Positions 32,146 through 61,455 of a DNA stretch of 64,000 nucleotides are shown in pieces. Within the stretch, counting starts at the first letter, position 1. Each line of letters opens with the position of its first letter. The notes under the pieces are model-generated. The model was not told where the DNA came from, searched no databases, and worked only from the letters and a program-made list of their open reading frames with translations. The translations under genes were made by a program, and so were the position numbers. The DNA is from Beijerinckiaceae bacterium (GTDB lineage: Bacteria; Pseudomonadota; Alphaproteobacteria; Rhizobiales; Beijerinckiaceae): contig JAJPIC010000024.1 of NCBI GenBank assembly GCA_021324915.1, positions 108,020 through 172,019 of the forward strand, written 5' to 3'.

Positions 32146-33336
32146 TTATTTTCCGGACCGCGCCATCAGTTTCTCATAGGCGGCGACATATTTTCGCGCC
32201 TCGTTTTCCCAAACGAAACGGTCATCGGCGAGCGTCTTGGCCGCCTGGCCGCGCGCCGATCTTTCCGCATCATCTTCGATCAGTTTGAGACAGGCACGCG
32301 CCAAGCCTCGAGGCGTCGGCTCTTCCGAATATTGCGCGGTCGCGCCCAGCAGGCGCCGTGTCTCCGAAAGATCATAAGCGACCGTCGGCACGCCGAGAGC
32401 CGAATATTCGAAGACTTTATTCATGCTGATCTTGTCGTTATATTCGTTGATCGGATCCGGAATAATGCCGATATCGAAAGAGCTCATGGCGGCATGGAGA
32501 TCCTCGCCGCTCAAATAGCCGGTAAAGGTGATCCGCTCCGCAAGTCCGAGCCGAATGGCGAGCTCGCGCACGCTTTGAAGCGCCGGGCCATCGCCGATGA
32601 CGATCGCATGAATGTCGCCCCTGCCGAAATCCTCGATCAGGTGCTGCATCATGAGGACAAGCTGATCGACGCCGTCCTGATCGGAGATGATCCCGACATA
32701 GCCGAGGACGATGCGGGCGCCATTGCGCAACTTGCTGTTCGGGGCCACGCGTTTGAGACTGTCGAGGCGCGGCACGCTGTAAACGGCTGTGACGTCTTCC
32801 GGGCGCCGGCCGCCGCGCGTGATGGCGAGATCGCGATAGGTGTCGTTGGCGCAAATCACGATGTCTGCCGTCTTCATCGTCGCTTTTTCTGCCAGAAGCA
32901 GAAGCCGATAGAAAAAGCCGCGCGTACCGAACTTCGCCGCGAAGAGCTCGGGGCAGGTGTCGTGATGGTCGAAGACGAGCCGCTTGCCCAGAAGCTTATA
33001 GGGAAGCGCATTGAGGAAGAGAATATCGGGCGGATTGCAGACTTGGATGACGTCGAAGCCGGGTCCTGTTGCGATCTTGAACAAGAGCCGCGCCTCGCTC
33101 AAAAGCGCGCTGAGATATTCCCGAAAAAAGCCAAGCTTACCGCGCGCCTCGAGCGGCAGGTCATGGCGGTAGACGGCGATCTTCTCGAGCTCTTCGAAAT
33201 GCGCCGAGTGGATCTTGCTCGTCGGGCAGATGACGGAAACGCGCCAACCGGCGTCGCGCAGCGCCCGCGCTTCCTGCCATACGCGCCGATCGAGCGGCAC
33301 GGGAAGATTTTCGACAATGATGACGCAAGATCGCAC
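32146..33336 (-). CDS. Glycosyltransferase family 4
   Basis: ENLPVPLDRRVWQEARALRDAGWRVSVICP; C-terminal ARIVLGYVGIISDQDGVDQLVLMM, GDGPALQSVRELAIRLGLAERITFTGYL. Confidence 0.88.
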   Translation of the reverse strand: MRSCVIIVENLPVPLDRRVWQEARALRDAGWRVSVICPTSKIHSAHFEELEKIAVYRHDLPLEARGKLGFFREYLSALLSEARLLFKIATGPGFDVIQVCNPPDILFLNALPYKLLGKRLVFDHHDTCPELFAAKFGTRGFFYRLLLLAEKATMKTADIVICANDTYRDLAITRGGRRPEDVTAVYSVPRLDSLKRVAPNSKLRNGARIVLGYVGIISDQDGVDQLVLMMQHLIEDFGRGDIHAIVIGDGPALQSVRELAIRLGLAERITFTGYLSGEDLHAAMSSFDIGIIPDPINEYNDKISMNKVFEYSALGVPTVAYDLSETRRLLGATAQYSEEPTPRGLARACLKLIEDDAERSARGQAAKTLADDRFVWENEARKYVAAYEKLMARSGK

Positions 33337-33363: not shown

Positions 33364-34470
33364 TTACGATGGTCTGACCGGAGCCCCGTCGAGAGCCCGC
33401 GCGATAGCGTCCCAGAGGGGTTTGCGCTGAAGCTTTGCATCGAGAGGCTGCCCGCGACTGGGAAGCCCGTCTCTCCGTGCAAAGGGCGGCACGTCGAGCC
33501 ACGTATAACGGTCGGAGAGGCCCCAGGCGACGAGGCCTTTCACCGCTTTTTCATCGAGCGTCGTCTCGAGATAGCGAAAGGCGTGATCGGCGACTTCTCG
33601 ATCCCGTGTGGCAATGTCGGCCGGCGCACGCATGTCGTTGACGTCGAACTCGGTCAGAAGAATGGAAAGGCCGAGTGAAGCGACGTCAGCGAGAAAGCTC
33701 CGAAAGGCTTTCGCATCGAACCATAATCCGATTTTCAGGTGGGACTGAATGCCGAGCCCGTCGACAAGGCCGCGCTTGCTGAGCGAAGATAAGAGCTCGA
33801 GCACGGCGTCGCGCTTACTCCCCTGAAAGTTATATTCGATGCCGTAATCGTTGTAATAGAGAGGGGTATGCGGCAGGACGCTGCGCGCGATCTCGAAAGC
33901 GTGCGGAATATAATCGGGGCCGAAGCGCTTCAAGAAGGGCGAATTGCGATAGGAGCCCGGTAGCTTGTCGTTCGGCTCGATCGCTTCGTTGACCACATCC
34001 CAGTTCACGACTTTCGTGCCGAAATGGCTGAGCACGGTTCGAATGTGGGTCTCATAGAACCGGCGTCCGTCAGGGCCAGCGAGCGCCTGCGGAACCCAGG
34101 GAGGCAGGTTATTGTACCAAACAAGCGTATGGCCACGAATCTTGAGCGAATTGGCGTGCGCGAATTGGACCAAAGCATCGGCCGAGGAGAAGTCGAGCGA
34201 TCCTTCCTCGCGCTCGAGAAAGCCCCATTTCATTTCCGCCCAGGGCACGATCTCGGCGCAATCGGCCATGACTGCGGCGCGGAACGCTTGATCTTTCGCG
34301 ATCTGCGGCGCCGAGACCCCGCAGCCGAAAGTGATGCCACGGCGTGCCGCCTTGGATTTCAGCGAGTTCGACGCATCCGCCTCTTGGCCAACGGCGCCGG
34401 ATGCGAGGGGGACAAGCGCGGCCGTCTTCAGGAGGCTGCGCCGGGTGAAGTCGAGATTGCGGCTGCTCAT
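33364..34470 (-). CDS. GH10 family endo-1,4-beta-xylanase-like glycoside hydrolase with Tat-type signal
   Basis: Tat-like FTRRSLLKTAA; WAEMKWGFLEREEGSLDFSSAD, IRGHTLVWYNNLPPWV, VVNWDVVNEAIEP (acid/base Glu), LLTEFDVND (nucleophile Glu), WGLSDRYTWLD. Confidence 0.9.
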   Translation of the reverse strand: MSSRNLDFTRRSLLKTAALVPLASGAVGQEADASNSLKSKAARRGITFGCGVSAPQIAKDQAFRAAVMADCAEIVPWAEMKWGFLEREEGSLDFSSADALVQFAHANSLKIRGHTLVWYNNLPPWVPQALAGPDGRRFYETHIRTVLSHFGTKVVNWDVVNEAIEPNDKLPGSYRNSPFLKRFGPDYIPHAFEIARSVLPHTPLYYNDYGIEYNFQGSKRDAVLELLSSLSKRGLVDGLGIQSHLKIGLWFDAKAFRSFLADVASLGLSILLTEFDVNDMRAPADIATRDREVADHAFRYLETTLDEKAVKGLVAWGLSDRYTWLDVPPFARRDGLPSRGQPLDAKLQRKPLWDAIARALDGAPVRPS

Positions 34471-35576
34471 GCCCATTTCCGAATTGATCCGAAACGCTCG
34501 AGCCCTGCGGTCAAGGCGCGCCGCGTTCGCTTGGTGACCGGGCTCTCGACAAACACGTGATAGGTGAGCCCGATCCCGATTGCGAGGAGCGAGGTGATGA
34601 TGATCGCGGCATTGAGCGGGATCGCTCTGTGACCGAAGCGCGCGAGGATCGAGCAGAGTGCCGAGAGCGCCTCCGGGTGCACGAGATAGACGGCGTAGGA
34701 ACCTGCGCCGAGCAGCGCCAATACCGGGGGTAACCGGATCGTGTGACGCAGTTCGAGTTCGACCGCGCCGACGACGATAGCTAAAGAGCTGAGGCCGAAC
34801 ACCGCGCGCCCGGCAATAGGCACATCTTGGATATGCGTGCCGAAGAGCAGGGCTAGGAGAAAGATGCCCGTGCCAATGCCGAGGAATGCGCTTGGCAGCG
34901 GCACGCGATATCGTTGCAGGAAAACGGCGGCTCCGACCCCGAACAAAAACTCGAGATTGAATGGGTCGAAGATGAAGTTGGCCGGATAGCCGAGCTCGCC
35001 GAAGAAGCTGCACACGAGAATTGCCAAGCCCCAGGCCGCCAACATCCAGATTGCCGGAAATCCGATCGCGATGATGAAGCCGAAGAGCGTGTAGAAAAAA
35101 ACCTCGTGAACCAGGGTCCAAGCGACGCCCAGAACCGGCGGATTGACGTAAGGCAAAAGGGGAATCGAAAAAAATGCAGTGGCGAGATCATGCTGACTCG
35201 GTGCGCCGGCTGCAGGAAAGATCTGATAGAGAATGATGAGCGGAACGAGGATGCACCAGTAGGGCGGATAGATGCGCGAAAAGCGGCGCACGGCGTAGCG
35301 TCCGAGCCGGTCCCTTTTGCCGATGTCGCCCCAATGAACCCACGCGATGATGAAGCCGCTGAGGACGAAAAAGAAGTCAACGCCCACATTGAAGTTGTGC
35401 AAATGGCCGCCGAAAGCATCGATCCCGTAGAAGCGCTTCTCCGCGAGAATATCGCCGCTGTGATGGAAGACGACCAGAGCGGAGGCCAGCCCCCGCCCAA
35501 GCTCGAGAAGGCCGAGCTTCTTCGCCTCCTGCTCGAGCGAGCTTTTTGCGCTCTGTCTTGCCAAGGCCTCAAGCAT
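34467..35576 (-). CDS. Acyltransferase family 3 (OafA/ExoZ-like) membrane protein
   Basis: LLELGRGLASALVVFHHSGD, NVGVDFFFVLSGFIIAWVHWGD, RRFSRIYPPYWCI; multiple TM. Confidence 0.88.
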   Translation of the reverse strand: MLEALARQSAKSSLEQEAKKLGLLELGRGLASALVVFHHSGDILAEKRFYGIDAFGGHLHNFNVGVDFFFVLSGFIIAWVHWGDIGKRDRLGRYAVRRFSRIYPPYWCILVPLIILYQIFPAAGAPSQHDLATAFFSIPLLPYVNPPVLGVAWTLVHEVFFYTLFGFIIAIGFPAIWMLAAWGLAILVCSFFGELGYPANFIFDPFNLEFLFGVGAAVFLQRYRVPLPSAFLGIGTGIFLLALLFGTHIQDVPIAGRAVFGLSSLAIVVGAVELELRHTIRLPPVLALLGAGSYAVYLVHPEALSALCSILARFGHRAIPLNAAIIITSLLAIGIGLTYHVFVESPVTKRTRRALTAGLERFGSIRKWA

Positions 35577-36714
35577 GGCGATCCTTGCGAATGGGTTTTT
35601 GCGAAAGTTCGCCGCAAAGCGCGAGATATTTTTCGGCGCAAAGTCCGGTGGCAAATTCCATGCCTCGTGATTGCAACAGGCGCGTGTCGATCGGATCGGC
35701 GAGCGCGGCGAGAATTGCTTGCGCGAGCGCTTCGACATCGCCGACCGGCGCCAATCGTCCAAACTTTCCGTTCGCCAGGATTTCCGAAGGGCCGAAGGTG
35801 CAATCGGTGCTGACGACCTGCGTCCCGCACGCGAGCGCTTCGACGAGCACGTTGCCGAATCCCTCGAAGCGAGAGGAAAGCACCAGTGCCGCAGCCTGAC
35901 GCATAAAGGGCAGCGGATTGGCGACGAACCCGGGCATATCGACCAGATCCGCGAGGCCGAGGGAGGCGGCGAGTCTTCCCAATTCGGCCCTCAACGGACC
36001 CTCACCGAGAATGATGAGACGAACATCGCGCGAGCGATTGACGATTGCGAGCGCGCGAATGAGGGTGGCGTGATCCTTTTGCTCGACCATTCGGCCAACT
36101 GCCACGAGCACGCTCGATTCGCCGAACCAGCGATGTGCAATCGGCTCGGCCGCACGCGCCTCGAAGGAGTCGTCGATGAGGCCGTTATGAATCACGCGAA
36201 CAGATCCATTGGTGAGCCCGCAGATTTTCTCGACTTCGGTCGCCACGCCTTGCGAGACGGCGACGATCGCATCGGCTTTGCGCAGGGATAGCCGATAGAG
36301 AAGCGGAACCGCCCTGTATTGCAAGCTTGGCCGCTTCGCTTGTTGCGAGAGCGCGTTGTGCTGCGTGACAATGACGCAGCTTCGCGCAAACGCGAGGGAT
36401 ACGGCCCAGAGCGCGATAATATTCATGTGCTCCGTATTGCTGATCAGAAACGCAGGCCGCTCTTGTCGCAAAAACCCAATGAGAGGCAGGAGAGCTGCGG
36501 CAGGCCGGGTGACATCGAGAGATATCACGCGCGCGCCCGAAGGAATCGCATCGAGCAATTCGCCACGCCGACGATGCAACAAAAACGTGACCTGCATGCC
36601 GGCTGCAAGAAAATGCGGTGCCAAGCCGACATGCAGACGTTCTGCCCCTCCGCCGGAAAGATCGGGCAGATAGATCACGAGTTCCTTGCCGGCGAGATAC
36701 GTATCGCCGCTCAT
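35569..36714 (-). CDS. Glycosyltransferase family 4
   Basis: LVIYLPDLSGGGAERLHVGLAPHFLAAGMQVTFLLHRRRGEL; SVLVAVGRMVEQKDHATLIRALAIV; SSRFEGFGNVLVEALACGTQVVSTDC. Confidence 0.92.
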   Translation of the reverse strand: MSGDTYLAGKELVIYLPDLSGGGAERLHVGLAPHFLAAGMQVTFLLHRRRGELLDAIPSGARVISLDVTRPAAALLPLIGFLRQERPAFLISNTEHMNIIALWAVSLAFARSCVIVTQHNALSQQAKRPSLQYRAVPLLYRLSLRKADAIVAVSQGVATEVEKICGLTNGSVRVIHNGLIDDSFEARAAEPIAHRWFGESSVLVAVGRMVEQKDHATLIRALAIVNRSRDVRLIILGEGPLRAELGRLAASLGLADLVDMPGFVANPLPFMRQAAALVLSSRFEGFGNVLVEALACGTQVVSTDCTFGPSEILANGKFGRLAPVGDVEALAQAILAALADPIDTRLLQSRGMEFATGLCAEKYLALCGELSQKPIRKDRHA

Positions 36715-39179
36715 GCTTTCGCCGCGGCGCGCTCGGCCTCGACCGAGGCGACAATGTCCATCAGTTTCTCCGCGCGCGCATGCCACGTCTCGAGATGCGC
36801 GCCGGCGTCGATGTTGCGGCGGCACTGTGGCTTTGTGACAAGATCCGTCACCAGAGTCGCGAATTGCTCCGGCGCGTCGATGATGTGCAGGCGCTGCGCC
36901 AAATGCCGCGCCTGCGGAATGTCGGTCGTCACCACCTCCATTCCGGCGTTGAGGCAATGGTAATAGCGCAAAGGATCGAGGTAATGCGTGAGACGCGTAT
37001 TGGCGCGATAAGGCGCGAAGGTCATCGAGTATTCGCTGGCTAGCCGGACAATGTCGGCGTTCTTATAAGGTCCGCGATAGACGACGTTGGGCGACTTCTT
37101 CTGCACTTGCTCCAAGCGCTCGGCGATCAGCGGAGTCTTTGTGAGCCGTCCCCAGATGACGAATTGAATCTGCGGGTTCAACCGTGCCACCGCTTCGAGG
37201 AGATCGAAGTCGAAGCGCTGATCCAGGCTCGCGAGAATGAGCACGCGGCTCGCGTCGAAAACCGCGGGCGCGACCGGCTTCAGATCCGACGCGTTCCCGA
37301 GATGGCGCGACTGTGGAAATAATTCGGCGAGTGTCGGCGCCGAATGCACGATGAAATCGGCCGATCGCACAAGATCTTCTTGCGCGCGGCGGGCACGCGC
37401 GAGCTCTTCGCCCGTCTTGTCGTAGAGCAGATCGTCGTGCATATCCAAGCACCAGAGACCGCCGCAGAGGATCTTCAGGATCCGGGTCAGTCGCGGGAAG
37501 ACGAGATTGGTGGAATTGAAGATCAAGGGCTGCGGCGCGGTCCGACATTGCTTCGTCATCCATATGACGAAACCGACAATGGAGACGGATCGCGGTCGCT
37601 CCTCGCCGATAAGTGTGATGATTGGCCGGCGCCGGACTTGGATATAATAGACCTTGTTGCCGAGCTCATGCAGCGCCTGCGCGAACGGGCGCCGGAACCC
37701 GGTTTCGGAATCGCTGCAGCTCATGAGGAAGATCGTGCGCCCACCTCCGGCTGTTCGGCGCGCGATGAGCGATCCGCCCTGCGCTCCCGCCATCTTGTAA
37801 TAGGCCGAGAGCTTTCGCAGCGAGATTGGAAGGAGCAATGCGGCGAATGGAGCAGCGATCGCCCAGGGCCCTAATTCTCTCCAGAAGAGGCCGATGACCG
37901 TGGCGACCCACCAAAGACCTGCGAGCCTGTAATCGGGCGATCCCACAGCGCGGGCGATCAGAACATGTAAAATAAGGTAAGGCGGAATGCCGGCGAGTTC
38001 GCCGAACCCATAGCCTTTCATTCCGACATGCGGGACGGTCAAATAGGCGGTTCCGGCGAAACATAAAATATGAACCGCATGGAAAATGGCCAGCCGCATG
38101 TTGCGAAAGAGCACGGACATGGTCGCCGTGTGCATGTTGAACATTGCGGCCGTGAGATAGGACACGGCAATATATGGGTAGATTTCGAGCACCGGCAGCC
38201 AGCGGGCGCCGAAGATCATTGGGATGATCCAACGGCCGAACCAGGCAAAGCCGAGGACGATCGACCCGGTTGCGAGGAGCTGTAGCTCCATTCCTTCGCT
38301 GATGGCTTTGCGTATGCGCGGGAGATCGTCTTGAAAGCGCGCCAGAACGGCAAGCGATATGCGCCAGGCGATGGTCCTTAAAATGCCGAGCATTTCCAGA
38401 ATGCCCACCGCCATGCCGATGATGCCGACCGCGTAAGCCCCGAGCGCTGGGCCGACGATCAGCGGATTGACGAGCATGCGCAGCTGCCAAATCCAGTTGG
38501 CGAACGAGAAAGACGTCGTGTAGCGCAGCATTTCCTGCGCAGCGGCTCCGTCCCAGCGCAGAATGGGCCAGCGCCGTGCGTAATAATGGGCGAGAACGAG
38601 CGTGCCGGCCTGCTGGATAATCCAGGCGAAGGCCAAGGCGACAGGGCTGCGGTTCAGGAGAACAAAGGGAATTGCGATGAAATAATAGCCGACCTGACCG
38701 GTAATTTCGGTGAGCGCGACGGCGCGGTAATTGAGCGCACGTTCGAGCGGGATCAGCGCCGGAACGGTGAGCAATTGAAGCGGCGCCGCCAGGATCATGA
38801 CGCCCATGACCTGCGAAAATCCTTCGACCTTGACGAAGCCGGAAAGGACATCGCGGCCGGCCTCGGCGCCGACGACCAGCGCGACGGACATTGCAATGAG
38901 TATGACGTAGGAAGTTCCGATATATCGCTCGCCGAGCTCGCCCGCGTGCCGCAGGAGAAAAACGCCGATCCCCAATTGGCCGAGCGCGATCGCATATTGA
39001 TAAAGGTTGAACGCGGCGACGAAAGCGCCGTATTTGGTCGGGCCGAGGATGCGTGCGATCAACAGCACGCCGATGAATTTCAAAACGACCGAGACAATTT
39101 GACGCCCGAAGAGCAGGGCGCCGCCTTTCATCACCGACGAGCGATAGCTCACGGCTTCGGCCTGGACTTTGGTGCTCAT
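36711..39179 (-). CDS. Fusion protein: N-terminal Wzx-like oligosaccharide flippase plus C-terminal glycosyltransferase-like domain
   Basis: N-terminal about 450 aa MATE/MOP-type multi-TM (SVMKGGALLFGRQIVSVVLKFIGVLLIARILGPTKYGAFVAAFNLYQYAIALGQLGIGVFLLR); from TIFLMSCSDSETGFRRPFAQALHELG onward a soluble GT-B-like domain (LRYYHCLNAGMEVVTTDIPQARHLAQRLHIIDAPEQFATLV), one uninterrupted frame. Confidence 0.85.
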   Translation of the reverse strand: MSTKVQAEAVSYRSSVMKGGALLFGRQIVSVVLKFIGVLLIARILGPTKYGAFVAAFNLYQYAIALGQLGIGVFLLRHAGELGERYIGTSYVILIAMSVALVVGAEAGRDVLSGFVKVEGFSQVMGVMILAAPLQLLTVPALIPLERALNYRAVALTEITGQVGYYFIAIPFVLLNRSPVALAFAWIIQQAGTLVLAHYYARRWPILRWDGAAAQEMLRYTTSFSFANWIWQLRMLVNPLIVGPALGAYAVGIIGMAVGILEMLGILRTIAWRISLAVLARFQDDLPRIRKAISEGMELQLLATGSIVLGFAWFGRWIIPMIFGARWLPVLEIYPYIAVSYLTAAMFNMHTATMSVLFRNMRLAIFHAVHILCFAGTAYLTVPHVGMKGYGFGELAGIPPYLILHVLIARAVGSPDYRLAGLWWVATVIGLFWRELGPWAIAAPFAALLLPISLRKLSAYYKMAGAQGGSLIARRTAGGGRTIFLMSCSDSETGFRRPFAQALHELGNKVYYIQVRRRPIITLIGEERPRSVSIVGFVIWMTKQCRTAPQPLIFNSTNLVFPRLTRILKILCGGLWCLDMHDDLLYDKTGEELARARRAQEDLVRSADFIVHSAPTLAELFPQSRHLGNASDLKPVAPAVFDASRVLILASLDQRFDFDLLEAVARLNPQIQFVIWGRLTKTPLIAERLEQVQKKSPNVVYRGPYKNADIVRLASEYSMTFAPYRANTRLTHYLDPLRYYHCLNAGMEVVTTDIPQARHLAQRLHIIDAPEQFATLVTDLVTKPQCRRNIDAGAHLETWHARAEKLMDIVASVEAERAAAKA

Positions 39180-39376
39180 GTCGGCTGATACGCTCCGGTG
39201 AGGACCATGGCCTTGGCTGTCAGATCCCGAGATTTCCATCAGATCCTGAGATCTCTTCAGATCCTGAAATTGTCGCAAAAATCGGACCGCGAGGAACCTC
39301 TCGCAGCCCTACTTCAGATGTGCGATTAACCTGCTATGCTTTCATTCGCTTGAAAGCAGACGCGCGGGAAGTTTTG

Positions 39377-40726
39377 ATGACGTTCAGGAGCGTTGAGACA
39401 TATGGCGCGGCTCAGGCCCGCCGGCAATCGGACGTCGGCCTGTTCGATTCGCCTATCGAAACGGGCCTCACGTTTTTCATTCTCCTCTTCCCTGTCATCG
39501 GCACGTTCTTTCCATTCGAGGATTATCGGACGCAGCAGCTTAACGGCCAGTTGCAGACCTTCAGCGAGAGCACGCTGAGCTCCGGGACGATCGGCTTTGC
39601 GGTGATGCTCGTCCTCTTTTCCTACTGGTCGCTGCGACGCGGGCATGCGAGCCTCGTCGGCTTCCTGCGGATCTGGCCGCTCTGGGGCTTCACGCTCTAC
39701 GCACTTCTCGCATCGAGCTGGGCGGAAGCGCCGGGCATTAGTCTCAATCGGGGAGGACGCATGGCGATCATGATTCTCGCCGCGTCCTATCTCGTTCAAC
39801 GCCATCCTCTGAAGAAGCTCATCGCGATGCTCACCATCGCGCTCTTCGTCTCGGCCTGCCTGTCGATTGCGGTTGCAGTATTCGTGCCGAGCCTCGGCGT
39901 CACTTTCGGCTACAGCGCTTATAGCGGCGCCTGGCGCGGCGCCTTCGACCAGAAGAACAATCTCGGCGCCATGGCCTCCATCGCCATTATCGTTTCGGCT
40001 TACTCGTTTCGGATCAAAGCCAATCCGGTCATCGCGCTACCGACGATCCTGGCTTGCGCCCTTCTGTCCGTCACTGCGCGTTCCGCGACCTCAGCGATTG
40101 CCACGGTCGTGAGCGGATTGGTCGCATCCTACCTCATTCAGTTCGTGCGCGTCCGTCGCCCTCAAGACAAGATTACACTCGCGGCGATTGGTCTCATCCT
40201 TGTGATGGGCTCGATGAGCCTCGTCTATTTCGCGGGGGATCTTCTCAATTCCATCGGCCGAGATTCGACCTTTACCGGCCGGGATACGATTTGGGCTCTC
40301 GTGCGCGTTGCTATCGATCAGCGGCCGATATGGGGATATGGACTTGGCTTCTGGCAAAGTTCCAGCGGCATTCTCGCCGAGATCTGGAATGCTTTGCGCT
40401 GGGACGCGCCGGAGGCGCACAACACTTGGCTTGATGCGTGGCTGCAGCTTGGCCTTGTCGGTCTTCTGTGGCTCATTTCGCTTTGGCTGCTCGCAGCGAA
40501 GGACATTATCGTTCTCCTTCTGTCGACGAGGGTAGAAGCCGTCGTGTTCTGGGCCGCCATTCTTGTCGATATTCTCGTCCGGAGCTTCACCGAAACTTTG
40601 ACCATAGACCCCGGCATTCAATGGATGTTCTGGTTCGCTCTTGCGTTCGCGAGCATACAAAAGCTGCGAGCGGAATATCACGCGGCCCCGAGCGACCGCT
40701 ACAGCTTCTCCGCTCCGACGCGCTGA
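39377..40726 (+). CDS. O-antigen ligase/polymerase family protein (ExoQ-like)
   Basis: GGRMAIMILAASYLVQ, WRGAFDQKNNLGAMASIAIIV, GRDTIWALVRVAIDQRPIWGYGLGFWQ, EAHNTWLDAWLQLGLVGLLWLISLW. Confidence 0.85.
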   Translation: MTFRSVETYGAAQARRQSDVGLFDSPIETGLTFFILLFPVIGTFFPFEDYRTQQLNGQLQTFSESTLSSGTIGFAVMLVLFSYWSLRRGHASLVGFLRIWPLWGFTLYALLASSWAEAPGISLNRGGRMAIMILAASYLVQRHPLKKLIAMLTIALFVSACLSIAVAVFVPSLGVTFGYSAYSGAWRGAFDQKNNLGAMASIAIIVSAYSFRIKANPVIALPTILACALLSVTARSATSAIATVVSGLVASYLIQFVRVRRPQDKITLAAIGLILVMGSMSLVYFAGDLLNSIGRDSTFTGRDTIWALVRVAIDQRPIWGYGLGFWQSSSGILAEIWNALRWDAPEAHNTWLDAWLQLGLVGLLWLISLWLLAAKDIIVLLLSTRVEAVVFWAAILVDILVRSFTETLTIDPGIQWMFWFALAFASIQKLRAEYHAAPSDRYSFSAPTR

Positions 40727-45983: not shown

Positions 45984-47072
45984 TCATGTCATGCGCCGAG
46001 CCGAGCCCGCGTCGGTGCGTTTCCCGCACTCCTTATCTACTGTGCGGTAGACGTCATCCAGCAGAGGCAGAACCGCCGCAGCGCTGAATTTCTCGCAAAT
46101 CGACTGATGGGCGGCTTGCCCCATCCTCCGACGCAGATCTTTATCGCCAATCAGGGCCAATATTGCGGCGGCGAGCGATGCAACGTTCCCAGGCTCGCAA
46201 AGAATCCCGTTCACGCCATCCTCGATCAGTTCGGGCAATCCGCCCACCGGCGTCGTCACGACAGGCAAACTCCAGGCCATCGCTTCAAGCACGCTCATCG
46301 GAAGACCTTCATTATAAGAAGGGAGGACATAAATATCGGCGTCCGCCAGCAAGGAGTTCCGCTCCGCCGGACCGACCCAGCCGCGAAAGTCCACGTGCTC
46401 GGCGATTCCGAATTGATCAACGAGCGCCTTGGCTTTGTCGAGCGCACCGTTGCCGCAGATCACGAGCTGGACTGCGCCGGAACTCGCGTGAACCTGGGCA
46501 AAGGCTCCGATGAGATCGAAAACACCTTTGCGTTGTCCAATCTGTCCCAGAAAAAGAATCTTGCGCACGGACCGCGACCTATCGGGAACCGACACGGGAA
46601 CATCAACATAATTCGGCACGACGCAGATAGCCGCCTTTGGTGCAATTCCTTTGACGAAACGGCCCCAGCTCGGCGAAAGAACCAGAACGCGCGAGGCTGC
46701 TTCAAGCTGAGCAATAATGAGTCGCTTCAGCGGAGCCGGCTGGCTCTCGTAGAAGACCTTTAGCTCGGAACCGTGGAGATGGAAGACCACCGGAACGCCG
46801 AAGGCGCGCGCGATCACGCAGAAGATCGACTTGCGCCAGAAACTGCCGCGCATTGACGCATGGACATGCACAAGCTCGACCTTGGATGTTGCGAGCGTTG
46901 CGACAAAGAGCAGCAAGGCACGAAGCAGGACGAGCTGGCGAACGAAAAATCCGTGCCCGGAATAAGCAGCGATAAGTTTAATCTTCTGTCGCGTTATGAA
47001 ACCGTCATGTCGATAAGACTCAACCACGCTGCGCATGCCGCCGGGCGCGCAATTCCAAACCATGATTTTCAC
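45984..47072 (-). CDS. Glycosyltransferase family 4
   Basis: VRKILFLGQIGQRKGVFDLIGAFAQV, ICGNGALDKAKALVDQFGIAEHVDFRGWVGPAER, LPSYNEGLPMSVLEAMAWSLPVVTTPVGGLPELIEDGVNG. Confidence 0.93.
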   Translation of the reverse strand: MKIMVWNCAPGGMRSVVESYRHDGFITRQKIKLIAAYSGHGFFVRQLVLLRALLLFVATLATSKVELVHVHASMRGSFWRKSIFCVIARAFGVPVVFHLHGSELKVFYESQPAPLKRLIIAQLEAASRVLVLSPSWGRFVKGIAPKAAICVVPNYVDVPVSVPDRSRSVRKILFLGQIGQRKGVFDLIGAFAQVHASSGAVQLVICGNGALDKAKALVDQFGIAEHVDFRGWVGPAERNSLLADADIYVLPSYNEGLPMSVLEAMAWSLPVVTTPVGGLPELIEDGVNGILCEPGNVASLAAAILALIGDKDLRRRMGQAAHQSICEKFSAAAVLPLLDDVYRTVDKECGKRTDAGSARRMT

Positions 47073-49591: not shown

Positions 49592-51034
49592 TTGCGCGTG
49601 GCTCACCTCGTCAGCGAATTCGATCTTTCGACTCGTAAGGCCCGGCGGCTGTCTATCTCGCACGGGATGATTCAACCACTCTTCGTTCTCTTCGACGCTA
49701 CCGCGATATTATTGGCGAGCGTTCTCGGCCTGGTGGTTTACTATTTCCTTCGTGCAGACTTCATGGATCTCGAGAGCTACGCCGGGGTCGATATTTTTGC
49801 GATCTCGGTTTACGCGGCCTCGGCATCCTACTTCCGCCTCTATAGATTCCGTCAGCTGAATCGGTCGGGGCTCGAGTTCAAGAGCGTCTTGGTAAGCTGG
49901 GCCGCCGTTCTCTTCTGCCTGACGGTCTGCCTGTTCCTCATGAAGCTCGGCAGCCACGTCTCGCGCGCCACGATAACCGCCTTTCTTGTCATCGCGCTTC
50001 CGTCCTTATTGATAAGCCGGTCTATTTCCAAAAGCTTTTTCAAGACGGCCATTCAAACTAGCCTCATTCGCGGACGCCGCGCGATTGTCGTGGGAACGCA
50101 CGACGAGCTCGTTTCCATCAGCCAGGAACACCTGCTTTCTCATTACGGAATCGACGAGGGCGAGCGCATAACCTTGCCGGCACGCGAAGCCAACGAGTCT
50201 CATACGGAGGCCGTAGCGCGCGAAGCCGCGGGCCGGGCGCGCATCATCCGCGCCGGCGAGGTTGTTTTAGCCCTTCCATGGGACGACGACGTAAGACTCA
50301 GGCTCGTTCTGAAACATCTCAGGACCTTGCCTATTCCCGCGAGCTTGCTGCCGGACCGTTCGGCGAGATCCTTGCTCGAGGGGCACAACTCGACCTTCGC
50401 GGAAGAGCTTCTGATTCCCGTCAAACGCGCCCCGCTCGGGCCTTTCGCCAGACTTGCAAAACGTTCATTCGATACGGTGATCGCGGCTGGGCTGATCCTC
50501 GCATTCTCGCCGGTGATGATCGTGGCCGCGCTCGCGATCAGGCTCGACTCGAAGGGGCCGGTGATCTTCCGCCAGCAGCGGAGGGGATTCAACGGCGAGA
50601 CCTTCGTCATCTATAAATTCCGCACCATGTCGGTGATGGAAGACGGCGGCAAGATCATCCAGGCCAAAAAGGGGGATCCCCGCTTGACGCGGGTGGGCGG
50701 CCTCCTCAGGCGCTCGAGCATCGATGAGCTGCCGCAATTGTTCAATGTGCTGAAGGGCGACATGTCCTTGGTGGGTCCTCGCCCGCACGCGTTGACTCAT
50801 GACGACGAATTTTCCGCTCTGGTCGCCGAATATGCATTCCGTCATCATGTGAAGCCAGGAATAACCGGGCTCGCTCAGGTCAATGGCTTTAGAGGCGAGA
50901 TGCGGTGTTTCGACGATCTGAAGCAACGCATCGACTACGATTTGAAATACGTGAACAACTGGAGCTTCCTCCTCGATCTCCAAATCCTGGCGAGGACGTC
51001 GCTCGCAACTGTCATCGCCAAGAACGCCCATTGA
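49592..51034 (+). CDS. Polyprenyl glycosylphosphotransferase (WcaJ/WbaP-type initiating sugar transferase)
   Basis: N-terminal TM bundle; KRSFDTVIAAGLILAFSPVMIVAALAIRLDSKGPVIFRQQRRGFNGETFVIYKFRTM...LTRVGGLLRRSSIDELPQLFNVLKGDMSLVGPRPHA. Confidence 0.95.
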   Translation: MRVAHLVSEFDLSTRKARRLSISHGMIQPLFVLFDATAILLASVLGLVVYYFLRADFMDLESYAGVDIFAISVYAASASYFRLYRFRQLNRSGLEFKSVLVSWAAVLFCLTVCLFLMKLGSHVSRATITAFLVIALPSLLISRSISKSFFKTAIQTSLIRGRRAIVVGTHDELVSISQEHLLSHYGIDEGERITLPAREANESHTEAVAREAAGRARIIRAGEVVLALPWDDDVRLRLVLKHLRTLPIPASLLPDRSARSLLEGHNSTFAEELLIPVKRAPLGPFARLAKRSFDTVIAAGLILAFSPVMIVAALAIRLDSKGPVIFRQQRRGFNGETFVIYKFRTMSVMEDGGKIIQAKKGDPRLTRVGGLLRRSSIDELPQLFNVLKGDMSLVGPRPHALTHDDEFSALVAEYAFRHHVKPGITGLAQVNGFRGEMRCFDDLKQRIDYDLKYVNNWSFLLDLQILARTSLATVIAKNAH

Positions 51035-55490: not shown

Positions 55491-55669
55491 CACGCAATTC
55501 AAACTGCATGACTGAAAACTTCACAATGCGCTCGCTCGCGCGTCACATTGCTGAGTTATTCGTCGCGTTGCTGTGAGGCAACAGAAGCACCTTTTCGTTG
55601 TGAGTAGATTGCGCTTTGTCGCTTGTGCGGCGCATAATTACTCATTCCTTAAATGATGGGGGAAGGAGC

Positions 55670-56866
55670 GTGCGCGTTTCCCATGTGTTGAGCCGAGCCG
55701 TTGCCGTGGCGGGCGTGGTGCTGTTGGCCGGCTGTGTTGGGTTCTTCCCCGTCGCGGGTCCGAATTCCGTCGACATCACGTCGCAGCAGACGTTCAGCGG
55801 ACCCCAATATGGGTTGGTGAAGCTGTCGCCGCAGGTCATCAACATTCTCGAAGAATATGGGCCGCAGACGCTCAGCGCTCAATTCGGTGATCGCCGGCCT
55901 CCGCCGGAACTCAAATTCGGCATTGGCGACGTCGTCAGTGTCACGATTTTCGAAGCGGCGGCGGGCGGGCTCTTTATTCCTGCGGAAGCGGGCGTGCGCC
56001 CCGGCAATTTCGTCACGTTGCCCAATCAGCCGATCGATACGAAGGGCTTCATTTCCGTCCCATACGCGGGCCTCGTCCCGGCAGCCGGCAAGACGCCCTC
56101 GGAGGTTCAGGCGGAGATCGTCAGCCGGATCAAGAACAGGGCAATCGAGCCGCAGGCCGTCGTGGCGCTCGTCAATCAGAACACGTCGCTGATCACGGTG
56201 ATCGGCGAGGTGAATTCGAGTTTCTCGCCTTCGGGCCGTATTCCGGCAATGCCGGCAGGCGAGCGAATCCTCGATTATATTTCACGTGCCGGCGGTCTGA
56301 AGGACCAAGGCCAAAACACCTGGGTCGTGCTTGAGCGCAACGGCAAGCGCGCCGCTGTTCCCTTTGGCGCACTGATCTATGAGCCCGGCAACAATATCTG
56401 GGCTTGGCCGGGCGATACGATCTATCTCTATCAGGAGCCGCAGACCTTCCTCGCGTTCGGCGCGTCCGGTCAGCAAGGGCAGTTCGCCTTCAGCACTTGG
56501 CGCATCTCGCTTGCCGAAGCGCTTGCTCAGGCTGGCGGCCTTCTCGATATTCAGGCAGATCCAGGTTCCGTGTTCCTCTATCGGCGCGAGCCGCGCCAGC
56601 TTGCCCAACTCCTCGGCGTCGATTGCTCGAAATTCGACGGGCCGACGGTGCCGATCGTCTACTCGGCGGACCTGCGCGATCCAGCAGGCTATTTCCTCGC
56701 GACGCGGATGCAGATGCATAACAAGGATATTCTCTTCGCGGCCAACGCCGAGTCCGTCGAAATCACCAAATTCCTCCAGTTCTTGAACGTCGTGATCACA
56801 ACCGGAAGCAATGCCTATACCTTGGGCATCAACGCCCAGACGTTGCGCATTGATTCGCATCTCTGA
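55670..56866 (+). CDS. Polysaccharide export outer-membrane lipoprotein, Wza-like
   Basis: Lipobox VVLLAGC; FGIGDVVSVTIFEA; FVTLPNQPIDTKGFISVPYAGLVPAAGKTPSEVQAEI; SLITVIGEVN SLBB-like region. Confidence 0.9.
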   Translation: MRVSHVLSRAVAVAGVVLLAGCVGFFPVAGPNSVDITSQQTFSGPQYGLVKLSPQVINILEEYGPQTLSAQFGDRRPPPELKFGIGDVVSVTIFEAAAGGLFIPAEAGVRPGNFVTLPNQPIDTKGFISVPYAGLVPAAGKTPSEVQAEIVSRIKNRAIEPQAVVALVNQNTSLITVIGEVNSSFSPSGRIPAMPAGERILDYISRAGGLKDQGQNTWVVLERNGKRAAVPFGALIYEPGNNIWAWPGDTIYLYQEPQTFLAFGASGQQGQFAFSTWRISLAEALAQAGGLLDIQADPGSVFLYRREPRQLAQLLGVDCSKFDGPTVPIVYSADLRDPAGYFLATRMQMHNKDILFAANAESVEITKFLQFLNVVITTGSNAYTLGINAQTLRIDSHL

Positions 56867-57014: not shown

Positions 57015-58331
57015 GTGCTGCTCGGTTGCGTGCTTGTCTTTGCGCCGGCTCGCGGCCTGCTGCTTTCACAGCTCATGCTGCTGGGATTGGCCGCGATCGT
57101 TATTTCGGCCTACGCGGTCGTGCTGCATGAACAGCTCTCGGCTCATCCCTGGCTGAAATCGGCCGCTCCGCATCCGATCTGGGGTGAAGCGGGCGCCGCC
57201 TTGAAGGTTCCCTTGCAGCCACTTGTGTCGATTGCGCGCAATAGACCTTATTTCGAGATCGGCCGGCCGCTCGCTTCGATCATGGCGCTCATTGGTGGAT
57301 TTCTCATCGGCGCTCAACGCCGCCGCGCCAAACTCTTGATGAAAGCGATCGCCTGGTCCGGCGCAGCTTACGCCGCGTATGGGATCATCGCCCATCTTGC
57401 CGATCCGACGCAATTGCTCTGGAGGGAGAAGGAAGCCTATGTGTCGGTTCTGACCGGAACGTTCGTCAACCGCAACACGGCCGCCATTTATTTCGGGACG
57501 GCGGCGGTCCTCTGGCTCCTTTTGCTTGCCGAGCGCGTACGCCAGCACCTGCCGCCGAGAGAGATCGAATGGCGGCGCGCGGTCGATCTTTTTCTCTCTC
57601 GGACGCCCAAGGAAATCATTATCGCCTTCTCGATGTTGTTCATCTGCCTTGCGGCGATGTTCATGACGGGATCCCGGGCAGGCGTGGTGCTCTCCCTTTG
57701 CGGGCTCGTCGTCGCGTTTACTCTTTATTTCAGGCGAGACCTGGCGGGCTGGCGAGCGATCTTCATCGCCGCGGCGGGGGCCAGCGCCGTCGCGCTTTTG
57801 CTCCTCGAAATCATGGGAGCCGGCGTGAACGGACGCGCGGATCTCATCAGTACGCCCGACGAAGGTCGGCTCGAGACATATCGATCGACATTGAGATTGA
57901 TCGCCGACCATCCGTGGTTCGGGACTGGTCTTGGCACATTTTCTTTGAGCTTTCCCGCTTACCGCAGTTCGAAAGTCTCGATGTGGGGTGTCTGGGATAT
58001 TGCCCACAACACGCTTTTGGAAGTGGCCGCCGATATGGGCATTCCCGTCGCCTGCCTGCTCGTGATTGCTTGGGCGATCGGCTTTGCGGTCCTCGCACGC
58101 GGAGCAATCGCGGCGCGCCATCACCGCACGGTTCCGATTGCCTCCTTCGTAATAGCTTTGCTGGCAGCGGCGCATTCGCTCGTCGACTTCTCGCTGCAAA
58201 TTCCCGGTTACGCAATTGTCGCATTCGCGCTCATCGGGGCGGGGCTTTCGCAGTCCTGCTCGGCTCTTCAAGAAAATTCAAAACTGCGCACGTTCGCGCC
58301 GGAACAGCCGCGTTGTTCCGTTGAGGCATAA
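57015..58331 (+). CDS. O-antigen ligase/polymerase family protein; true start probably upstream
   Basis: TGTFVNRNTAAIYFGTAAVL, MTGSRAGVVLSLCGLVVA, DHPWFGTGLGTFSLSFPAYR, AHNTLLEVAADMGIPVACLLVIAW. Frame is open back to 56877 and encodes a further TM segment. Confidence 0.87.
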   Translation: MLLGCVLVFAPARGLLLSQLMLLGLAAIVISAYAVVLHEQLSAHPWLKSAAPHPIWGEAGAALKVPLQPLVSIARNRPYFEIGRPLASIMALIGGFLIGAQRRRAKLLMKAIAWSGAAYAAYGIIAHLADPTQLLWREKEAYVSVLTGTFVNRNTAAIYFGTAAVLWLLLLAERVRQHLPPREIEWRRAVDLFLSRTPKEIIIAFSMLFICLAAMFMTGSRAGVVLSLCGLVVAFTLYFRRDLAGWRAIFIAAAGASAVALLLLEIMGAGVNGRADLISTPDEGRLETYRSTLRLIADHPWFGTGLGTFSLSFPAYRSSKVSMWGVWDIAHNTLLEVAADMGIPVACLLVIAWAIGFAVLARGAIAARHHRTVPIASFVIALLAAAHSLVDFSLQIPGYAIVAFALIGAGLSQSCSALQENSKLRTFAPEQPRCSVEA

Positions 58332-59136: not shown

Positions 59137-61455
59137 ATGCTTCAGGTGGATCAGTCTAAAGCCGCGCCGCGCGAGCCGGAAAGCGAACACTCAGATCTTG
59201 TCTCTTTCGGCCGGCTTTACGACACATTTTTGCGCCTGGTTCGCCGCCAGTCCGCAATCATCCTCTTCATTGTCCTCGTTACATTGGGCTTGGCGTCGGT
59301 TTACGTTTTCACCGCAATACCGCGCTATACGGCGCGCGCCGTTCTGCTGATAGATAGCCCTAAGCTCAACCTTTTCCAGCAGCAATCTTCGCAAGACGAC
59401 GTCAATCTGCCGCTCGACACCGCAATGGTGGACAGTCAGGTCGAGATCCTGAAGTCCGAAAACATTGCGCTGTCGGTGATCAAGGACTTGCACCTTACCG
59501 ACGATCCGGAATTTGTCGGGCCTGCCGGCGGCTTGATCGGCGGGCTCTTCGGTTTGCTTTCGAATTTCGGCGGGGGAAGCGAGGCGAAATCGGAATACGC
59601 GCTGTCGCGGGAAGCGCTGCAAAGGTTCCAAAAGCGGCTGACCGTCAAGCGCGTCGGCCTGACTTACGTCATCAATATCGATTTCGAATCGCTCAATCCG
59701 CAGCGAGCCGCGCAGATCGCCAATGCGATCGCCGATGCCTATGTCGTCGATACGCTGGAAGCAAAATATGATTCTACAAAGCGCGCCGCGGTCTGGCTCC
59801 AGGACCGCCTAAACGAGTTGCGCGCTCAGGCGACCGCTGCCGACCGCAAGGTGGTGGCGTTCAAGGAGAAAAACAACATCGTCGATACGGGCGGGCGGCT
59901 TCTCAACGAGCAGCAGCTTGCCGAGCTCAACAGCGCGCTCGTATTGGCCCGCGCGCAAACTGCCGAAGCTCAAGCTAAATACGCGCGCGTCAACCAGATT
60001 CTTCAGGCTGAAAGTCAGGCCAAGGACCAAAGCGATGACAAGGGCGATGTCTTCGATCAGGCGACCGCCACCGTCACCGATTCCTTGCACGACGATGTCA
60101 TCACGCGGCTGCGCCAACAATATCTGGATCTCGCAGCCCGCGAGAGCGATTGGGCGATGCGCTACGGCCCGACGCATCTGGCCGTCGTAAATCTGAAAAA
60201 CCAAATGCAGGAGATCCGGAATTCGATCGACGACGAGCTTCACCGGATCGCGCAGACCTATAAGAGCGATTACGACATCGCCAAATCGAGAGAAGATTCG
60301 ATCCAAAAGAGCCTGAACGACATCGTCTCGCAATCCAATCAGACCCATCAAGCCGAAATCACGCTGCGCGACCTCGACTCGACGGCACAAAGTTACCGGG
60401 CCTTGGCCGACAATTTCCTGCAGCAATATATGACCTCGGTGCAGCAGCAATCGTTTCCGATCACCGACTCGCGATTGATCACGAAGGCGACGCCGCCGCT
60501 GAAGCCGAGCCACCCCAAGACACTGCTCATTCTCGGATTGGCGCTTGCGGGAGGCACGTTCTTGAGCTTCGGAATCGCGGCCGTGCGCGATCTTTCGGAC
60601 CAGGTGTTCAGGACGACTTCGCAAGTCGAGACGAGTCTCGCACTCGATTGCGTGGCGGTTGTTCCGCGCGTGAAGACGCCGGTTGCGGCAACCATGCCGA
60701 TGCTCGAAGATCCGGCGCAGCGCACAATCATGCGCGATCAGAGTCTCATATGGTACTCGCTCGATGCTCCGTTCTCGCGCTTCAGCGAATCGATTCGCTC
60801 GATCAAAGTCGCCGGTGACCTCTTTGCGATGAGCAGGCCGAACAAGGTCATCGGCCTGACCTCCTCCCTGCCGAATGAAGGCAAGTCGACCATCGCCGCC
60901 TCTCTGGCTCAGCTCATGTCGGATGCGGGCGGCCGCGTCATATTGGTCGATACCGACCTGCGAAACCCGGCGCTGAGCCGGCAGCTTGCGCCGAACGCCA
61001 CGATGGGCCTCCTCGAGGTGATTTCGGAGAAGGCGGCGCTCGACGACGTCATTTGGGTCAATCCCGCGACCAACCTCCAGTTCTTGCCGGCGGTCGTAAA
61101 GTCCAGATTGGCGCACACAAGCGAGATCATCGCTTCCGAAGCGACGGCCAATCTGTTCAGGAAGCTGCGCGAGACCTATGATTATGTCATCGTCGATCTC
61201 TCGCCTTTGGCTCCGATCGTCGATGTGCGGGCGACGATCAACTTCATCGACTCTTATTTGTTCGTCGTCGAATGGGGCAACACCAAAATTCCCGTGGTCC
61301 AGCATGCGCTGAACAACGCGCGAGAGGTGAAAAACAACATCCTCGGCGTCGTGCTCAACAAGGCCGATTTCCGCGTTCTGAACAGATACGAGACGTATCG
61401 CGGCGATTACTACTACAACTCACACTATTATTCCCGATACGGATATACAGACTGA
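59137..61455 (+). CDS. Wzz-domain polysaccharide co-polymerase fused to BY-kinase (Wzc/ExoP-like)
   Basis: Wzz-like TM and coiled-coil; TPPLKPSHPKTLLILGLALAGGTFL; Walker A-like SSLPNEGKSTIAASLAQLM, ILVDTDLRNP, YVIVDLSPLAPIVD; Tyr-rich tail YETYRGDYYYNSHYYSRYGYTD. Confidence 0.95.
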   Translation: MLQVDQSKAAPREPESEHSDLVSFGRLYDTFLRLVRRQSAIILFIVLVTLGLASVYVFTAIPRYTARAVLLIDSPKLNLFQQQSSQDDVNLPLDTAMVDSQVEILKSENIALSVIKDLHLTDDPEFVGPAGGLIGGLFGLLSNFGGGSEAKSEYALSREALQRFQKRLTVKRVGLTYVINIDFESLNPQRAAQIANAIADAYVVDTLEAKYDSTKRAAVWLQDRLNELRAQATAADRKVVAFKEKNNIVDTGGRLLNEQQLAELNSALVLARAQTAEAQAKYARVNQILQAESQAKDQSDDKGDVFDQATATVTDSLHDDVITRLRQQYLDLAARESDWAMRYGPTHLAVVNLKNQMQEIRNSIDDELHRIAQTYKSDYDIAKSREDSIQKSLNDIVSQSNQTHQAEITLRDLDSTAQSYRALADNFLQQYMTSVQQQSFPITDSRLITKATPPLKPSHPKTLLILGLALAGGTFLSFGIAAVRDLSDQVFRTTSQVETSLALDCVAVVPRVKTPVAATMPMLEDPAQRTIMRDQSLIWYSLDAPFSRFSESIRSIKVAGDLFAMSRPNKVIGLTSSLPNEGKSTIAASLAQLMSDAGGRVILVDTDLRNPALSRQLAPNATMGLLEVISEKAALDDVIWVNPATNLQFLPAVVKSRLAHTSEIIASEATANLFRKLRETYDYVIVDLSPLAPIVDVRATINFIDSYLFVVEWGNTKIPVVQHALNNAREVKNNILGVVLNKADFRVLNRYETYRGDYYYNSHYYSRYGYTD

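Follow-up and report, generated by a model that had tools for sequence, protein, structure and literature searches.

In MprF, a lysyl-phosphatidylglycerol synthase is joined to a flippase, and one polypeptide both makes and flips a lipid. The families involved are unrelated to those of the fusion described here, and the substrate of MprF is a phospholipid rather than a glycan unit. A precedent for fused enzymes within a lipid-linked glycan pathway is given by the bifunctional phosphoglycosyl transferases (Bi-PGTs; PMC10942596), although there the fusion is on the priming enzyme, whereas in the window, the 64,000-nucleotide stretch of Beijerinckiaceae DNA analysed here, it is on the flippase. 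In Rhizobium, proteins of the Wzx/Wzy pathway are reported to interact with one another (PMC4182512, PMC5748678). A physical hand-over of the glycosyltransferase (GT) product to the flippase is not established for this pathway, the evidence being fragmentary (PMC5748678, PMC4182512).

The fused gene and its surroundings

A preliminary description of the window had read positions 36711–39179 of the reverse strand as a single unbroken frame, a natural fusion of an N-terminal MOP-type flippase to a C-terminal GT-B-like domain, followed by a GT4 gene with an ATGA overlap. On translation the frame does run for 822 codons without a stop, and the gene behind it (36714–35569) encodes a GT4 of 381 aa. 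GC content by codon position stays level throughout the fused frame, including the junction, and a search of the host genome gave one full-length match to the fused protein, its own gene. The domain boundaries had been put at about 37800 and 37740. The second of these held, the GT starting at ...GGGRTIFLMSC near 37740 with its first strand at 37739, while the conserved end of the flippase was relocated to 37794. The features are collected in Table 1.

Table 1. Positions within the window of the fused gene, its parts and the genes of the surrounding cluster
Feature	Position	Strand	Basis or remark
Fused gene, 822 aa, Wzx-type flippase + GT-B glycosyltransferase	36711..39179	-	uninterrupted open frame
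Flippase domain, residues 1-465	37785..39179	-	PF13440 3.7e-27; ends of relatives; fold
Disordered linker, 13 residues, 466-478	37746..37784	-	pLDDT < 50 in full-length model
GT-B (GT4-like) glycosyltransferase domain, residues 479-822	36714..37745	-	pLDDT 90.9; PDB matches; free-standing relatives
In-frame ATG (Met463), candidate internal start for free GT	37791..37793	-	sequence; inference only
GT4 glycosyltransferase, 381 aa, downstream, ATGA overlap with fused gene	35569..36714	-	PF13692 2.6e-33
Acyltransferase	34467..35528	-	PF01757
GH10 glycoside hydrolase (xylanase-type)	33364..34488	-	PF00331 4e-78
GT4 glycosyltransferase	32146..33336	-	61-62% identical to GT4 of Rhizobium clusters
Wzy-type polymerase/ligase (Wzy_C)	39320..40726	+	
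GT4 glycosyltransferase	45984..47072	-	
Priming sugar-phosphate transferase	49592..51034	+	PF02397
Wza-type outer-membrane export protein	55616..56866	+	
Second Wzy_C-type protein	57015..58331	+	
Wzz/Wzc-type co-polymerase with ATPase domain	59137..61455	+	

Judged by its predicted gene content, the setting of the fused gene is a Wzx/Wzy exopolysaccharide cluster. A set comprising GT, GT4, acyltransferase, Wzy and GH10 is common to the window and to the Rhizobium loci L031 and L032. The GT4 immediately downstream has orthologues at 52–54% in related clusters, and the acyltransferase is found in the same operon order in L025, L031 and L034. A GH10 enzyme lying inside an exopolysaccharide cluster is an observation in its own right, and it recurs in Rhizobium and in other related clusters.

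The N-terminal half of the fused protein matches PF13440 (Polysacc_synt_3) over residues 41–330, scoring 95.8 bits where the cut-off is 23 (E = 3.7e-27), and PF01943 as well. The fold of its predicted model matches a MATE transporter, WzxE (9g9p, TM 0.80 by target) and MurJ (7waw, 0.73). Approximately 14 membrane helices were counted by eye in the full-length model, and hydropathy gives 11 segments before the GT; the helix number falls within the range of 10–14 described for MOP PST flippases (PMC5748678), the range of the Wzx/MOP type. An even number of helices (∼14) would place both ends of the flippase on the same side of the membrane, which we take as the cytoplasm. By profile match and modelled fold, then, the membrane half is a Wzx/MOP flippase, a putative mover of undecaprenyl-linked units. 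It has the PF13440 match, the fold, the even helix count and the position in a Wzx/Wzy cluster in common with WzxE, WzxC and PssL, but those proteins normally stand alone at ∼420–500 aa, whereas the window protein adds a C-terminal GT. Since no other PF13440 flippase was found in the host genome, the exopolysaccharide cluster probably depends on the fused gene.

For the C-terminal half, the possibility had been raised that it does not fold as a GT. Structure prediction of this half alone instead gave a confident GT-B fold with two Rossmann-like domains (pLDDT 90.9, pTM 0.88). The model matches 220 PDB structures at E ≤ 0.001, and the best 50 of these are mostly GT4-type and related GT-B enzymes; the top match is GlgM (6tvp, TM 0.70), and BshA, MshA and TarM were also matched. 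The sequence scores are weak. Searched as part of the full frame, residues 660–781 match the GT group-1 family PF13692 at 4.8e-4, under the curated cut-off, and residues 651–763 show weak similarity to TuaH in NCBIfam (2.6e-4), while the isolated half misses the Pfam cut-offs (PF13524, 24.6 bits against 25; PF13692, 22.6 against 27). A PDB sequence search with the full fused protein returned nothing useful. The GT-B fold is common to this domain and to TuaH, BshA, MshA and GlgM, although the TuaH profile match is weak; the window GT is set apart by its 9–15% identity to solved structures, a conserved His and its flippase tether.

This His, H741 (codon 36957–36959), lies in the nucleotide loop, which reads DPLRYYHCLNAG in the window, and it is invariant in 11 of the 11 aligned family members. 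The outgroup GT4-like proteins L018, L019 and L023 have at this place the Glu of ...LREYLAAG. On this alignment, His for Glu is a trait common to the GT family and no defect of the window gene. It suggests that donor binding or use may be unusual, and it weakens the case for an ordinary GT4 enzyme. A His throughout the family in place of the nucleotide-loop Glu, together with profiles of active GTs that score under cut-off, would also fit a domain that is itself inactive as a transferase and serves instead to dock the downstream GT4 or the lipid-linked unit. We regard such a role as distinctly unlikely, as the many polar residues that are invariant across a wide phylogenetic distance in this family (for example D579, D582 and H741) fit catalysis better than scaffolding. 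The GT half is best described as a GT-B enzyme resembling GT4, with GT4 membership unconfirmed and transferase activity predicted.

Authenticity of the junction

As set by the relatives, the junction comprises the 54 nt between the conserved end of the flippase (YYK, 37794) and the first strand of the GT (37739). In relatives where the two genes are neighbours, they overlap by 11–29 nt in different frames, and one indel could in principle fuse such a pair. A base error at the junction, introduced in sequencing or assembly, might in the same way have joined two ordinary genes. We therefore considered every single-base substitution, insertion and deletion across the 54 nt, a total of 369 distinct edits; the test covers single-base changes, and multiple changes or a non-standard start fall outside it. 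The fusion is broken by 213 of the edits, in 19 of which a start codon remains for the GT, and with one single-base deletion an ATG would appear 11 codons ahead of the GT first strand. However, in none of the 369 does the flippase end before the GT first strand while the GT has a start of its own, and in the nearest edits the flippase frame still overlaps the GT by 16 or 71 nt. Because no single-base edit restores the ordinary two-gene layout, a sequencing error is unlikely as the source of the fusion. The junction also lacks a long homopolymer, and for the host assembly completeness is put at 98.6% and contamination at 0.01%. Taking these points together, we consider an artefact very unlikely.

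Both halves are modelled well in the full protein (pLDDT 89.6), in which pLDDT falls below 50 at residues 1–10 and 466–478 only, the latter being the linker. The full-length pTM is 0.63, and the relative placement of the two halves is not fixed by the model. The disorder of the linker would suit a real frame that yields the complete fusion protein together with a separate GT, the latter made from the ATG at 37793 or released by post-translational cleavage. The Met463 ATG is 18 codons ahead of the GT core, inside the range of starts used by the free-standing relatives, but it has no convincing Shine–Dalgarno sequence upstream, and we think a second product unlikely.

Split relatives and the rarity of the fusion

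Relatives came from nine loci in a scan of genome contigs, with more from a search of the host's family. The flippase and GT halves are separate proteins in all of them, and the search for orthologues carrying the same fusion, which the preliminary description had proposed, found none among them. The flippase relatives (41–59% identity) end at the same place, just after a YY motif, which in the window protein reads on into the GT; the free-standing GT relatives are 35–45% identical to the window GT half. Some carry the flippase only (G013, 59%; Bosea L026 and Rhizobium CG5 L025, 57–58%) and others the GT only (L031, L032 and L033, 44–45%; G166, 44%). As both halves belong to real conserved families with separate relatives, and both fold, the idea of a natural fusion stood up.

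In the Rhodopila-type Acetobacteraceae loci L027–L030, and in G328 (L012) from the host's own family, the GT gene comes directly after the flippase gene, with the overlap of 11–29 nt mentioned above (e.g. ...CATGCCGTCTAA). These pairs have the same flippase family (41–46%) and the same GT family (35–39%) as the window, but they are two genes overlapping out of frame where the window has one protein, and they contain no counterpart of the linker. The simplest history is that two adjacent genes, out of frame with each other, merged into one reading frame in the lineage of the window, the split state presumably being ancestral. Trees of the two halves do not single out the nearest partner of the window protein, and leave this adjacent-pair history uncontradicted and unproven.

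Two further arrangements were seen. G125 has a 749-aa protein (L014:301-2550, −) in which a member of this GT family is fused to a second, different GT4. In Rhizobium CG5 (L025:9458-10615, +) a different GT4-type enzyme lies between the flippase and the GT4, which suggests swapping of the GT in the slot after the flippase.

No second copy of the fusion turned up in ∼1,500 protein-based searches of genomes (some being searched repeatedly), which took in the host's family, order and class and the Acetobacteraceae, nor in plasmids, nor when 84,980 genomes were scanned by pattern. PF13440 flippases were also surveyed in 199 genomes of the family and 259 of the phylum, and among the longest frames inspected (> ∼700 aa) there was one other genuine flippase fusion, in G223. 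A literature search, covering part of the literature, found no report of a Wzx–GT fusion. The flippase–GT fusion thus looks real but rare, with known parts in an apparently new joined form.

The G223 protein (L087:2412-4733, −; 773 aa) carries PF02397, a priming sugar-phosphate transferase, at residues 12–205 and a Wzx-type flippase (PF13440) at 286–576, so that the first enzyme of the pathway is joined to the exporter. Several other long frames were not accepted as flippase fusions. The first ∼330 residues of an 832-aa frame in G159 are arginine-rich and look non-coding; four long flippase frames in the host's family (787–1057 aa) look like N-terminal over-extensions, as do four from the phylum survey (727–1017 aa), with starts rich in R, P, G and A. 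Six phylum-survey frames of 1349–3347 aa appear to cross stretches of N and were not counted either way.

Possible coupling of sugar addition to flipping

We think it likely that the window gene arose when neighbouring flippase and GT genes became fused in frame, and that its single product adds a sugar and then flips the unit. The C-terminus, and with it the tethered GT, would be cytoplasmic, where the sugar nucleotides are. At the flippase mouth, the repeat unit on its undecaprenyl carrier would receive one sugar from the GT; the polypeptide that had extended it would then flip it for polymerisation by Wzy. We infer that the GT acts on the very unit that is flipped and that the tether may bring a kinetic benefit; that the added sugar is the last of the repeat unit is a guess. 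It is plausible that the fusion couples completion of the lipid-linked unit to flipping. A stronger version, which we put forward tentatively and hold to be possible but doubtful, is that the tethered GT, having capped or completed the unit, passes it directly into the transport cavity, such that only finished units are flipped, providing covalent proofreading together with channelling.

As a naturally occurring protein, the fusion hints at hand-over between GT and flippase without proving it. By naming the partner, the covalent link makes physical coupling of the two steps testable. The split pairs of Rhodopila and its relatives become candidate non-covalent complexes, and the unusual His of the GT family offers a separate handle on donor use.
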